A DNA stretch of 64,000 bases, taken from Alteromonas macleodii. Its GTDB lineage: Bacteria > Pseudomonadota > Gammaproteobacteria > Enterobacterales > Alteromonadaceae. This document shows positions 3,945-47,235 of this stretch, piece after piece. The notes below the pieces were generated by a model, which saw nothing but the letters and a program-made list of their open reading frames with translations, ran no database searches and had not been told where the DNA came from. Within the stretch, counting starts at the first letter, position 1. Every line of letters starts with the position of its first letter. The stretch covers positions 2,934,333 through 2,998,332 of the forward strand of contig NZ_LR812090.1 of NCBI RefSeq assembly GCF_903772925.1, written 5' to 3'. A program made the translations under genes and the position numbers.

Positions 3945-4610
3945 TTACGCGAAGTCTAAGGGTGACGGGGTTGAGGCATTTCTCACAAAGTCATGTGAGT
4001 TCAGCATCTGTTCTAGCTCGTGCTTTTGTTCATCAGGCAGCGTCAGCCTTGGCAATACACTCACCATCATGAGTGATAGAGCATGATAACGCTGCATTGT
4101 GCTATCCATATGACTGTTTAGCTCATCAAACTGACAAGACTGGGTAATAATTAAAGATATCAAATCTACTAATAGCGCCCTATCTGCATTTGAGGCAATA
4201 AGAATACCTCGCTTCGATAGTGACTCGAAAAGAAACGCTAATTGTTTATTTAAGCTAGATAGGATGTGCTGCCTAGGCCGCACAATACTCGGGTATTTTT
4301 CCGCCAAGTCAGCTGGACTGCGATAGAAGAAGCGAAATACATGGATGCTATCGATAAGAAGATACAGGTAGTACATGATTTCTTCAGCGTGAAGCGTGTC
4401 GAGCTTTTCTCGATTTAGCACCTTCTGCATTTGTTGTTCATGCATTTTCATCAGCGCACTAACTAGGCTGTCTTTACCTTTAAAGTGGTAATAAAGGTTT
4501 CCCGGACTAATATCCATTTCGACGGCGATATCCACACTGGTTACCGTGTTTTCGCCGTGCTCATTAAATAATGTTAGCGCGGTGAGTAGTATTTTCTGCG
4601 CGGTTTTCAT
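3945..4610 (-). CDS. TetR family transcriptional regulator
   Basis: A 221-residue DNA-binding repressor-type protein. The N-terminal helix-turn-helix lies at about residues 24-43 and ends in the family hallmark 'GNLYYHFKGKDSLV'. The remaining helical part should form the ligand-binding and dimerisation domain. It is the first gene of a probable two-gene unit with the WS/DGAT acyltransferase, so an acyl-CoA or fatty-acid ligand is plausible but not shown. I did not find a clear palindromic operator directly upstream. Confidence 0.88.
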   Translation of the reverse strand: MKTAQKILLTALTLFNEHGENTVTSVDIAVEMDISPGNLYYHFKGKDSLVSALMKMHEQQMQKVLNREKLDTLHAEEIMYYLYLLIDSIHVFRFFYRSPADLAEKYPSIVRPRQHILSSLNKQLAFLFESLSKRGILIASNADRALLVDLISLIITQSCQFDELNSHMDSTMQRYHALSLMMVSVLPRLTLPDEQKHELEQMLNSHDFVRNASTPSPLDFA

Positions 4611-7826: not shown

Positions 7827-9260
7827 GTGAGCGCACAAAGCCAAAACCCCGATAGCATTTTTACGCAGCAGGTAAAACAACTTATCAACATGATTTATCC
7901 TAAAGACTCGGGCTTCGGTTCGGTTTTTGAGGATGCCAGTCATTACTTTTCCCTCGCCCCTTCTCTTGAGCAGCATATTGAAGAATTAAAAGCACAGCTT
8001 AAGCGAATAGAAGGTAATAAAAAGAAAGAAGTATTAGCTGAACAGCTTGCTCAACAAATAAGAAATAGCTCAGAAAAACTTGAAGAGGAGCGTTTAGCGA
8101 GATTAGAGCGCTTGGACGCTGTAAGCACTAAAATAATCGAGCTCTGTGAAGGCGATAACTGGCAAGAAACACAACAGTTAAGCGCTAAGCTGCTTGGGAC
8201 CATAATGCTGCTGACACGAGGACCTGAGGGCAATTTTGCTCGTGTGCATATGCGCTTCAAACCGCTCTATAAGGCTGTCTTAACGTTGCGCTTAGTAGAT
8301 AGACTTTTAGAACACGACACAATTGCCCACAAATATTTATCAAAGTATCGCGAAGCCGCCTCTCGCTTTCGCGGAAACCGCTATTGGCGAGACAAATGGA
8401 AAACTGAGTTAGGTCGCCCTCTTATCACCGCCGCCCTTCTGCAAGATATTGGTTTACAGAGCCCTGCTGCGCAGACCATATTAAAAGGTGAAAACGGCGA
8501 CCTAGATGAGTTTCGTTTATTAGAAGAATCGCAGCGAAAAGACCTGCTGAAGCTAAACTATCACTTCACGTTACGTTACTTATCCGATGGTTTAGGACAG
8601 CCTAACTACGTAGGTAACAACAAAGAAGAAAGAGACCGTTTCAATCAAACTCACAAAGATGCTAACGAATTTTTGCTGAGTTTGGTTAAAGACGCCTTTG
8701 TGTCAAAAACCGGTTTAGGCGAGATTGTGAAAATCCCGCAAATTTACGTTTCCATCGTGCTTTCTACCAAGTCAGACTATTCCCGCAAGAGCTTACCCAA
8801 GGGCTATATGTTAATTGAGCAACTTGCGAAAAAAGGTGGCCTAAATAAACAATTAGCACAGGACTTTGTTGAGCTGGTGGGCTACTTCCCACAAGGTTTT
8901 GGTGTTACATATATACCTGTTAATGAAAAAGGCCAAGAGAAAGACCAATATGAATGCGCGATAGTGATTGGGCTGAACCCCGCGAACCCCGCAGAGCCTT
9001 TATGCAAAGTCGTGACAAGGAACCAAAAATACATCACCAGCGGTGCGCAAGAAGTCATTCCAAAAGGTAGAAACCTGTATTTCCCAGCAAACAGAAAAAA
9101 GCTAATGCGCGTGGGCCAAGAAAGGTTAGGCGAAATTATGAGCCAGCTGTCGAGCAATTTCACGCCAGATGCTATTGATGATTTAGTACCAAGCTTTTGG
9201 GAACCCTACGATTTCTTCGGTTTTAAAAAGCATCAGAATTTGTGGGCGAAGAACGGTTAG
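7827..9260 (+). CDS. Conserved protein with a coiled coil and a degenerate HD-GYP-like domain
   Basis: A 477-residue protein starting at GTG 7827, chosen for the GAAAGGAAG ribosome site just upstream. Residues 48-100 form a charged coiled coil. Further on, 'AALLQDIGL' (202-210) sits where an HD domain would have 'ALLHDIG', with Gln206 replacing the metal-binding His. The stretch from 'SDYSRKSLPKGYMLIEQL' to 'GYFPQGFGV' (317-360) matches the C-terminal layout of HD-GYP cyclic-di-GMP phosphodiesterases. I infer a catalytically dead HD-GYP relative used as a sensor or scaffold. No receiver or GGDEF domain is present. It lies 78 bp behind the patatin gene. Confidence 0.7.
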   Translation: MSAQSQNPDSIFTQQVKQLINMIYPKDSGFGSVFEDASHYFSLAPSLEQHIEELKAQLKRIEGNKKKEVLAEQLAQQIRNSSEKLEEERLARLERLDAVSTKIIELCEGDNWQETQQLSAKLLGTIMLLTRGPEGNFARVHMRFKPLYKAVLTLRLVDRLLEHDTIAHKYLSKYREAASRFRGNRYWRDKWKTELGRPLITAALLQDIGLQSPAAQTILKGENGDLDEFRLLEESQRKDLLKLNYHFTLRYLSDGLGQPNYVGNNKEERDRFNQTHKDANEFLLSLVKDAFVSKTGLGEIVKIPQIYVSIVLSTKSDYSRKSLPKGYMLIEQLAKKGGLNKQLAQDFVELVGYFPQGFGVTYIPVNEKGQEKDQYECAIVIGLNPANPAEPLCKVVTRNQKYITSGAQEVIPKGRNLYFPANRKKLMRVGQERLGEIMSQLSSNFTPDAIDDLVPSFWEPYDFFGFKKHQNLWAKNG

Positions 9261-9414
9261 CGGGTAATGACTAGAAGTGAAGCAGTGCTTAGGGTCTTTT
9301 TTGAGAGCCTCTAATCATTCGTGAGTTTAAAAAGAGAGTGCTTCTCCCTGAACTTGTGAGTATAAACGGTGCAATAGAGAGTTGAATTCGTGCTCAATGG
9401 GTTAAATTTTAATG

Positions 9415-9777
9415 CTATTCATTTTGCAATACTTTCATATATATCAGCGATTTGTATATCAACACTAATATCAAACCAGCCAAGATTGTAAACACAATAT
9501 CCATATAGTCTGTTGTTCCCCAGTCTAACTTAGCCTGCATAAACTCATAGACTATTGTACCAAGAATTAATCCTAGCAATATTTTCTTGAAAGCGTATCT
9601 AGTAAACATAAATGGCAAAGAAACAAAAAATACCGAAATAAAATTAGGCATTGAGTACAAAGCCGTGCTCAAAAGAATGTTTTCAGAAACAGAACTTCTA
9701 TATTGCTCAACAAAACCGTCAGAGTATATTGCGCAAGGAAGACATACACATGCGACCAAAAATGCTTTGTAGTTCAT
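9415..9777 (-). CDS. Small integral membrane protein, VanZ-like or candidate immunity protein
   Basis: A 120-residue, very hydrophobic protein with about four membrane segments (roughly 4-20, 36-58, 64-80 and 92-112). The stretch 'YEFMQAKLDWGTTDYMDI' followed by a glycine-containing helix loosely recalls VanZ-like proteins, which I rate as weak evidence. It lies 51 bp downstream of the GG-leader peptide gene on the same strand, with a hairpin between them. This arrangement is typical for a bacteriocin immunity gene, so that role is proposed by position only. The base composition is AT-richer than the flanking genes. Confidence 0.6.
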   Translation of the reverse strand: MNYKAFLVACVCLPCAIYSDGFVEQYRSSVSENILLSTALYSMPNFISVFFVSLPFMFTRYAFKKILLGLILGTIVYEFMQAKLDWGTTDYMDIVFTILAGLILVLIYKSLIYMKVLQNE

Positions 9778-9796
9778 TATCGTTCCGAGTAATTGT

Positions 9797-9820
9797 GGCC
9801 TGCTACTAGAAAAGCAGGCC
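9797..9820 (-). repeat. Hairpin between GG-peptide gene and membrane protein gene
   Basis: Perfect 8-bp arms GGCCTGCT (9797-9804) and AGCAGGCC (9813-9820) with an 8-base loop. It lies between two same-strand genes and has no run of U behind it. A processing or partial-termination element that lowers downstream expression is a plausible inference. Confidence 0.55.
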
Positions 9821-9828
9821 AGCTAAAG

Positions 9829-10047
9829 TTATGGGCGATTTAACTCAAAGGTTCTGCGCAACCTTCTAACATTGTAATCGTAAGAAGACTTCATCGAAGC
9901 CCATGAGTTTTCGAAATATCGGTTAATTCCGGCAGCACCGCCGATACTTTCATATGTATAATTTACTGCTAAACCAATTCCGACTCCAAGAAGTAATTGA
10001 TTGCCGCCGTTGACTTGAGCAATTTCCATCTCACATATTTCTTTCAT
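9829..10047 (-). CDS. Double-glycine leader peptide, candidate microcin-like secreted peptide
   Basis: A 72-residue peptide with a clear AAGGA ribosome site 7 bases before the ATG at 10047. The first 15 residues (MKEICEMEIAQVNGG) fit the GG leader consensus: hydrophobic at -12 (Ile), Glu at -8, hydrophobic at -7 (Ile), Val at -4 and Gly-Gly at -2/-1. Cleavage would leave a 57-residue product with a glycine-rich hydrophobic start (LLLGVGIGLAV, GGAAG) and a basic, aromatic C-terminus. Such leaders are removed by C39-peptidase ABC exporters; none is in this window. There is no serine-rich siderophore-attachment tail. A signalling peptide is the alternative. Confidence 0.75.
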   Translation of the reverse strand: MKEICEMEIAQVNGGNQLLLGVGIGLAVNYTYESIGGAAGINRYFENSWASMKSSYDYNVRRLRRTFELNRP

Positions 10048-10584
10048 TTTCGATTCCTTATTTAAATATAATTAGAGAGCTCGCTAGACTCTCTTACGCT
10101 GATAGTTTTCAGTTTACATATTGATGGCTCGCACTCAGAACTCATACTAATTACATAACTGAATTTAACGAACACCCTAGTGCTCGTCCTTTAAATAATT
10201 TAGTATTTTCATTATTAAATAAAATTCTCCCAAACCACAAATAAACTCTATAAAACAGTGGTTTATATGAATTATTATTAACTCGTAAGAATTAAATAAC
10301 TAAAAATAATCAGAAGGGATTGAATATAATTACTCAATTTCTAACTAACAACATTTGTGGCAGTATTTATCACGCCCTGTACGCTAGCCAATTTGCTCTA
10401 AGATATTCTTTCTTAACATTGTCAGGTTATTCGCCAGTTATCTCGAAGACGACCCACTTCATATTTTCTCGAATGGCCTTGCTGAAAGACGTAAAATCAA
10501 ACTCAAATACAACTACCTCTATGCGTAGCCTACGGCATTAATATTTCTTATACTTGTTTTTATTATTCAAAAGGGAATTTAAGT
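10048..10584. other. AT-rich intergenic region of the accessory pocket
   Basis: 537 bp between the leftward GG-peptide gene and the rightward frameshifted gene. It is visibly AT-rich. A 73-codon frame beginning at TTG 10320 has no convincing ribosome-site spacing, no recognisable protein features and unusual composition, so I do not call it. Both divergent promoters should lie here; I cannot place them with confidence. Confidence 0.5.
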
Positions 10585-11150
10585 ATGAAAGCGGATGACG
10601 AAATTACTATTACACGAGAACTAGCCGCTTCTAGTTTTTGCAACGCAAATTTAAATATTAATAAAGATGCCGTCACTATTACTCCTAGTTTAAAAGCCTA
10701 TTTGTTTGAATGGGTAATGCAAATTTTTTGTTGGGCATGCTGCATATTTATGTCGGTTAAAGTTTGGCAGTTGGAGCCAAACCTTGATTCGAGAACCGAA
10801 TTCGTTGTTGTCGTGCTTACACTGGGGGGCTCTTTAGTTTAGGAACGGCCTTTATATGCAGAAAAAGCAGAACAAAATTCTATTTTGACCTAAACGAAAA
10901 AGCGCTGAACGTCGGCAGTTCGCATAGTCCAAAAACTAAAGTTGCTTTTGATTCGTTTGAAAAGCTTCTGTTAGTTACGCATCGAATATATACATTTAGT
11001 GGGTCACTTACTTGTCACGTGCTAAGCGTTTTAACTAATAACCAAAAACGAATCGCGTTAATGTATCACGGTGATTATTACGCAATACAAAACGATTCAG
11101 ATATACTCGCGAAAATACTGGGATTAGAAGCGGATAATTTAGAGGCTTGA
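10585..11150 (+). pseudogene. Membrane-anchored hypothetical protein gene split by a -1 frameshift at a G6 run
   Basis: The first frame starts at ATG 10585 behind an AAGGGAA ribosome site and stops at 10842 after 85 codons. A second open frame without its own good start continues to the TGA at 11148-11150. The two join smoothly if the G run at 10824-10829 had one more G. The joined product would be about 188 residues: a soluble N-terminus, two adjacent membrane helices (about 46-62 and 76-92) and a cytoplasmic C-terminal domain with alternating strands, PH-like at best. A true lesion, a sequencing error or programmed frameshifting are all possible. I do not recognise the family. Confidence 0.6.
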
Positions 11151-47095: not shown

Positions 47096-47140
47096 ATGAT
47101 TAACTGCGCGGCGAAACATCACCATCACCACAAAGCATAA
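47096..47140 (+). CDS. hisL: his operon leader peptide
   Basis: A 14-codon peptide MINCAAKHHHHHKA with five consecutive His codons (CAT CAC CAT CAC CAC, 47117-47131), ending at TAA 47138. It is the sensor of transcription attenuation: ribosome stalling at low charged tRNA-His lets RNA polymerase read into hisG. A TAGGA lies 16 bases before the ATG, a loose ribosome site. The attenuator hairpins follow directly. Confidence 0.9.
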   Translation: MINCAAKHHHHHKA

Positions 47141-47155
47141 CCTTTCAGGTTCGTG

Positions 47156-47235
47156 CTGGAAGGTCTATGAATCCTTCCAGTGGCGCAGATAGAAAAATTC
47201 TCGACCCTCGGAAGGAAACTTCCGGGGGTTTTTCG
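47156..47235 (+). promoter_or_regulatory. his operon attenuator
   Basis: Four alternating complementary segments: CTGGAAGG (47156-47163), CCTTCCAG (47173-47180), CGGAAGGA (47209-47216) and CTTCCGGGGG (47219-47228). Segments 1-2 and 2-3 can pair, and 3-4 belong to the terminator CCCTCGGAAG/CTTCCGGGGG (47205-47228, loop GAAA) followed by TTTTT. This is the classic attenuation layout. Confidence 0.88.

Follow-up and report, generated by a model that had tools for sequence, protein, structure and literature searches.

A candidate double-glycine bacteriocin gene paired with a VanZ-like membrane protein gene in Alteromonas and related marine bacteria

About ten class II microcins, mostly from E. 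coli, are counted as validated in excerpts of PMC9746304. Excerpts of PMC10233263 define their leaders as the N-terminal 15-18 residues ending in GG or GA, and the class IIb (siderophore) members by a Ser/Gly-rich C-terminal motif. In the available text of both sources the immunity proteins are described as sharing no recognisable sequence, which makes new class II microcins hard to spot. The closest described system is that of microcin V, a class II microcin of the IIa type exported by a PCAT/MFP/TolC machinery (PMC10233263, excerpts). The cassette described here resembles it in its 15-residue double-glycine (GG) leader, small core and adjacent small membrane partner, and in the C39-peptidase ABC exporter with catalytic triad, HlyD-type adaptor and TolC of its genome. 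It differs from that system in being chromosomal, with the exporter 1.2 Mb away, in a host that we take to lie outside Enterobacterales, and in that its antibacterial activity is predicted. With the lactobin A/cerein 7B family of class IIb bacteriocins (NCBIfam TIGR03949) the cassette peptides share a GG leader and a glycine-rich start of the core, but their scores stay below its 21.5-bit cut-off, the window peptide being unmatched and the best relative tested (G414) reaching 19.3 bits, E 7e-4. The partner protein shows a weak profile match to the VanZ family (PF04892). VanZ genes pair with glycopeptide resistance genes, whereas the partner is paired with GG peptides. CAAX-protease (Abi) immunity genes serve Gram-positive class II bacteriocins; our cassette has a comparable arrangement, with a small membrane protein next to a putative GG bacteriocin, but its partner is VanZ-like and not a CAAX protease.

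The window analysed is a stretch of 64,000 nucleotides of a genome assembled as a single 4.67-Mb contig. On its minus strand, an open reading frame at 9829..10047 encodes a precursor peptide of 72 residues and is followed by a second one, at 9415..9777, encoding a membrane protein of 120 residues, both at the positions and on the strand given in the original prediction. We consider it probable that they encode an exported class II microcin-like bacteriocin and its VanZ-like immunity protein, a reading in which killing, cleavage, export and immunity are deduced from sequence, and in which both genes, their family, their pairing, the exporter set and the recent transfer are directly supported. 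The leader, MKEICEMEIAQVNGG (10003..10047, minus strand), carries I-12, E-8, I-7, V-4, G-2 and G-1, as expected of the textbook GG leader that had been claimed, and its 15 residues ending in GG place it within the class II microcin definition. A good ribosome-binding site had also been claimed, and AAGGAA is found 6 nt before the ATG (10054..10059, minus strand), with AAGGA present in 7 of the 9 loci compared. The remaining 57 residues (9832..10002, minus strand), the predicted mature peptide, form a core that is glycine-rich and then basic, with a net charge of +3. A strict GG-leader pattern was matched by one of the 233 window ORFs of at least 45 aa, the 72-aa ORF itself, compared with 0.033 per shuffled window (2 in 60 shuffles); a looser pattern was matched once in the window vs 0.23 times per shuffled window. 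As a comparison for the partner loci described below, a loose GG pattern was found upstream of none of 44 other large window ORFs.

No credible family was found for the peptide in Pfam or NCBIfam, where the best matches, RalF models with E of 0.1 and 0.2, were dismissed as chance. The Ser/Gly-rich C-terminal motif of class IIb microcins is absent, the peptide ending in RRLRRTFELNRP. Among solved structures, a profile search matched the peptide only weakly, at best over 24 residues of carnobacteriocin B2 (1ry3; E 0.12), and did not match the partner. Structures of both proteins predicted from two-row alignments had mean pLDDT values of 50 and 65, and were therefore too poor for use.

The partner had been described as a four-helix membrane protein of 120 residues; its size and position hold, and the number of hydrophobic segments is three or four depending on the threshold. 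With these segments, its place next to the peptide gene and a length inside the 51-216 aa range of the inner-membrane immunity proteins of class II microcins, it is a candidate immunity protein. Its match to Pfam VanZ (E 0.0029, 18.6 bits) lies below the gathering cut-off of 30.1, and for this reason we call it VanZ-like only. In NCBIfam its best match was a urea-permease model at 20.1 bits against a cut-off of 575.55, with an E-value of 2.4e-4, smaller than that of VanZ. Pfam VanZ was matched at E 0.1 or better by 10 of the 13 aligned partner members (best 1.1e-6; three unmatched), the profile similarity covering the C-terminal half of the protein. Conservation is highest in the stretch from PN(F) via G..YE..Q to (R)TFD..D.

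Between the two genes lies a hairpin without a T-tract (9796..9821, minus strand), which the original prediction had taken as suiting a lower expression of the partner. The hairpin is real (9 pairs when folded, -17.4 kcal/mol, z -3.24), but a general role of that kind is less well supported, since in G030 and G074 the peptide and partner genes overlap or almost touch. In G025 the intergenic hairpin has a different sequence (z -1.6). The window hairpin was ruled out as a terminator, as it has no T-tract and is absent from the list of the terminator scan; the single terminator-like site of that scan lies elsewhere and is at chance level. Promoter matches were also at chance level, with 4 found vs 5.0 expected. 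Upstream of the cassette, a 188-aa gene is interrupted in the window (10585-10842, plus strand), an 85-aa ORF ending after a G-run. The same gene is open in G027, G017 and G067, and the interruption may be genuine or due to an error in sequencing. Far from the cassette, a histidine operon leader (Rfam RF00514) at 47116-47233 is an ordinary feature.

Single-sequence and profile searches of sampled family genomes identified the peptide-partner pair in 17 genomes of nine genera of one taxonomic family, at differing chromosomal sites. These comprise 15 of the 395 sampled genomes together with G025 and G027 from the genus of the window. In 394 genomes of the order, a profile search found the core only in the window's own genome (G000) and in G131, none lying outside the family, and four other matches covering the leader and first residues; in 284 genomes of the class it found the window's own genome only, and a tblastn search of plasmids gave no match. 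Single-sequence matches in G006, G048, G051 and G062 lay in frames of 465-1515 aa and were dismissed as chance. The counts exclude five genomes whose matches comprise the leader and first residues only, beside exporter genes (G088, G136, G170, G287 and G151), as well as G005, which has a different GG peptide, and G016, with a stop-bearing match of 31 residues. In G005 (L017:4340-4903, minus strand) two tandem GG peptides with different cores precede a small hydrophobic protein, a possible two-peptide bacteriocin. The weak match of G016 (L018, ca. 4327-4419) adjoins ribosomal genes near the site of the broken cassette of G063, and is a possible remnant.

The peptide is open in 11 of the 17 genomes (the window, G027, G030, G074, G131, G147, G179, G203, G207, G331 and G414) and broken by stops or frame changes in six (G025, G063, G065, G124, G155 and G243). 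All 11 unbroken copies, including the window and the identical one of G027, have a leader ending in GG (10) or GA (G030), so that the original prediction does not fall for lack of conservation of the motif. Similar GG leaders were also found on different cores when related genomes were scanned, as the original prediction had suggested doing. Alignment A6 has V12, G14, G21, Y30, Y32, G36 and G40 invariant in its eight rows, with a conserved YxY[ED]xxGxxxG centre in the core, and the net charge of the core is not conserved, ranging from +5 to -9. The peptide of G207 differs from those of its two relatives by 9-10 synonymous codons and one non-synonymous codon (the two relatives differ from each other by one synonymous and two non-synonymous codons), and the synonymous excess between G207 and its relatives shows the peptide to be under purifying selection. 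In G025 (L016:4921-5141, minus strand) and G065 (L021:1403-1632, plus strand) the reading frame of the peptide gene changes in a G-run that coincides with the GG cleavage site, which may reflect one inherited break or a slippage site.

The cassette lies in a block (9126..10674) that differs from the corresponding one of G027, a sister species, at 4 positions in 1549 bp. The flanks are far more diverged, with identities of 82-95% overall, 93.1% in the neighbouring 477-aa gene and 81.8% in the region of the 188-aa gene, so that the cassette appears to have been exchanged recently between the two species through these flanks. The 477-aa gene is present in 56 of 59 genus genomes. When the 1500 bp downstream of it were read at 30 loci, the cassette was found in two, the window and G027; in G017 and G067 a 178-aa ORF occupies its position (that of G017, which was compared with Pfam, being DUF3592), and the remaining 26 showed no match to the cassette. 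Elsewhere the cassette adjoins other genes, with a site beside what we take to be prlC common to two genera (G203, G331).

A homologue of the partner lies directly downstream of the peptide gene, on the same strand, at 17 of 17 core-family loci. Partner genes were also sought by profile in 295 family genomes, and at E 1e-6 or better they were found in 30 genomes at 35 places, one locus per genome being read. Upstream of these 30 VanZ-like genes lie a core-family GG peptide in 10 cases (broken in G243), a stop-bearing core-family peptide in two (G155, G124), and a GG-type peptide of another kind in five (G091, G141, G185, G222, G298), four of the latter sharing the stretch SSGGQMN and G141 having a less clear cleavage site. 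In G267 the VanZ-like gene directly follows a C39 exporter, and at the 12 remaining loci the few hundred bases read upstream contain no GG-type peptide and no C39 exporter. The G267 locus, with an adaptor, a glycine-rich GG-type (GA) peptide, a C39 exporter and the VanZ-like gene in this order, is by its gene content a class II microcin-type cluster. It occupies the same site, on the side of a gene presumed to be purT, as the core-family cassette of its congener G414. The G267 and G414 partners are 31% identical over 100 residues, and a profile comparison with alignment A7 gave a probability of 99. The consistent pairing and this complete cluster reinforce the original assignment of the companion as a putative immunity protein. 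In G131 a C39 exporter, an adaptor and other peptides of GG type lie no more than 13 kb from the cassette, with genes between them that we take to be transposase-like.

It is possible, though less likely than not, that immunity to double-glycine bacteriocins in this marine family repeatedly draws on small membrane proteins of VanZ-like type, one fold serving against several unrelated peptide families. In that case VanZ itself, the molecular action of which the available text of PMC6697439 calls unclear, could owe its resistance function to an earlier role in protecting against membrane-active peptides. A recognisable membrane family that pairs with one GG peptide family across nine genera, and also with other GG-type peptides, offers a means of searching for immunity genes and a role for VanZ-like proteins that can be put to the test, and the near-identical block in two species shows that the presumed weapon and antidote travel as one unit. 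A search of non-subscription literature rendered, among the papers listed, no description of a GG peptide paired with a VanZ-like immunity protein, and no paper on Alteromonas with a double-glycine microcin or with a bacteriocin and a C39 peptidase.

The absence of a C39 exporter from the window, noted in the original prediction, was borne out, and the distant transporter that it called for was located. There are three C39 matches in the genome, all outside the window: an ABC exporter with its catalytic residues, a degenerate C39-like domain in a 721-aa frame, and a 327-aa frame too short for an exporter. The exporter (G000:C1, 4168 kb) lies 1.2 Mb from the cassette, with an HlyD-type adaptor upstream, and its triad (C30, H103, D119) has the spacing of that of CvaB (C32, H105, D121; PMC10233263, excerpts). 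Two TolC-type proteins score over the family cut-off, so that the genome holds the export components of a class II microcin system, namely a C39 ABC exporter with a Cys/His/Asp triad, non-adjacent to the cassette, an HlyD-type membrane fusion protein and TolC, and the prediction does not fail for want of an exporter. The same locus also holds a regulator of LuxR type, a GG peptide of 73 aa and an ATP-grasp gene. Since the exporter is thus already accompanied by a GG peptide, the window peptide can only be presumed to use it. The 73-aa peptide gene and the RimK-type ATP-grasp gene after it (L013:14008-15340), conserved in G027 (L156), look like those of a ribosomal peptide modified by an ATP-grasp enzyme, and provide the exporter with a second likely substrate.

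With the exporter and adaptor present, GG or GA kept and the partner consistently paired, the candidate class II microcin cassette of the original prediction gains support, and we envisage that it would work as follows. The 72-aa precursor would be made in the cytoplasm, and the C39 domain of the distant exporter would recognise its leader and cleave it behind Gly-Gly; together with the HlyD-type adaptor and TolC, the exporter would then export the 57-residue core. This core would most likely insert into and damage the inner membrane of close relatives, and the VanZ-like protein, seated in the inner membrane of the producer, would most likely protect it there. Between species, the pair would move by recombination through flanking housekeeping genes. 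Counting against this bacteriocin reading are the two loci with the partner cut and the peptide open (G147, G179), the exporter not being beside the window cassette but with its own GG peptide and an ATP-grasp gene, the varying charge of the core, the 12 VanZ-like loci with neither GG peptide nor exporter, and the weakness of the VanZ label.

It could also be the case that the peptide is an exported signal or a surface or biofilm peptide, and the VanZ-like protein a receptor or surface modifier instead of an immunity protein. The conserved core centre would suit such a function, and excerpts of PMC4997328 report small proteins with a GG motif and a biofilm role in Synechococcus. We regard this as unlikely, as the loci read show no kinase or regulator that regularly accompanies the cassette, a weapon accounts for the patchy presence (15 of 395), the varying sites and the transfer between species better than a housekeeping signal does, and a VanZ-like gene completes the microcin-type cluster of G267.

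Somewhat less likely still, the cassette could be a decaying or orphan remnant, with a peptide that is neither exported nor active in this strain and a VanZ-like gene that alone matters, as resistance to the peptides of neighbours. The state of the genes at the 17 loci bears on this. The partner is open at 14 of them, ends after 55 aa in G147 and G179, which share one truncation followed by a CAAX-protease-like gene, and is split in G025; the peptide is broken and the partner open at five, the peptide is open and the partner cut at two, and both are broken in G025. Although the numbers are small, such an asymmetry would be expected if a toxin were lost ahead of its antidote, as in the bacteriocin reading. 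The five loci and G025 can equally be counted in favour of a remnant, as can the lack of an exporter nearby and the fact that the sole catalytic C39 exporter of the genome adjoins another GG peptide. In the window, however, both ORFs are open in a block nearly identical to that of a second species, from which it follows that the cassette spread recently as a pair, and the leader is intact and the exporter set present.

A gene for a short peptide with one for a small membrane protein behind it would also be compatible with a toxin-antitoxin pair whose toxin acts inside the cell, or with a small membrane-active protein that stays unexported; the GG would then be coincidental. This is very improbable in view of the GG or GA found at one position in all 11 unbroken copies, and of the C39 match (E<=1e-20) in 17 of 17 carriers. 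The association of carriers with a C39 match also favours the bacteriocin reading. In the 395-genome sample, a C39 match was found in 15 of 15 carriers vs 188 of 380 others (Fisher p 5e-5), in 20 of 20 vs 183 of 375 when the five leader-only genomes were added, and, by genus, in 9 of 9 with the cassette vs 27 of 43 (p 0.04). The genomes are non-independent, so this association is support, not proof, of a link between cassette and exporter, and it says little within the genus, since the exporter is present in 30 of 32 genus genomes among the matches listed, with or without the cassette. Finally, the pocket is AT-rich, as had been claimed (9261-10584, G+C 0.349 vs 0.431 for the window), and its 1324 bp gave an ORF of at least 72 aa in 148 of 500 shuffles and of at least 120 aa in 7 of 500, but chance ORFs are already refuted by protein-level conservation across nine genera and the synonymous bias.

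Other arrangements of GG peptides were found in the family. In genus g31 (L038-L041) a short GG peptide is followed in all four loci by a CAAX-protease-like gene, with a C39 match ca. 1 kb further; the peptide is directly behind an HlyD-type gene in L038, L040 and L041 and behind another gene in L039. To judge from this layout, the g31 loci are a candidate further type of bacteriocin cassette. Genes that we likewise take to be CAAX-protease-like, from sequence inspection, follow the cassettes of genus g46. In G027, a second C39 exporter cluster (L157; C1:1573000-1592000) contains two glycine-rich GG peptides, a 1049-aa gene and an ATP-grasp-like gene.
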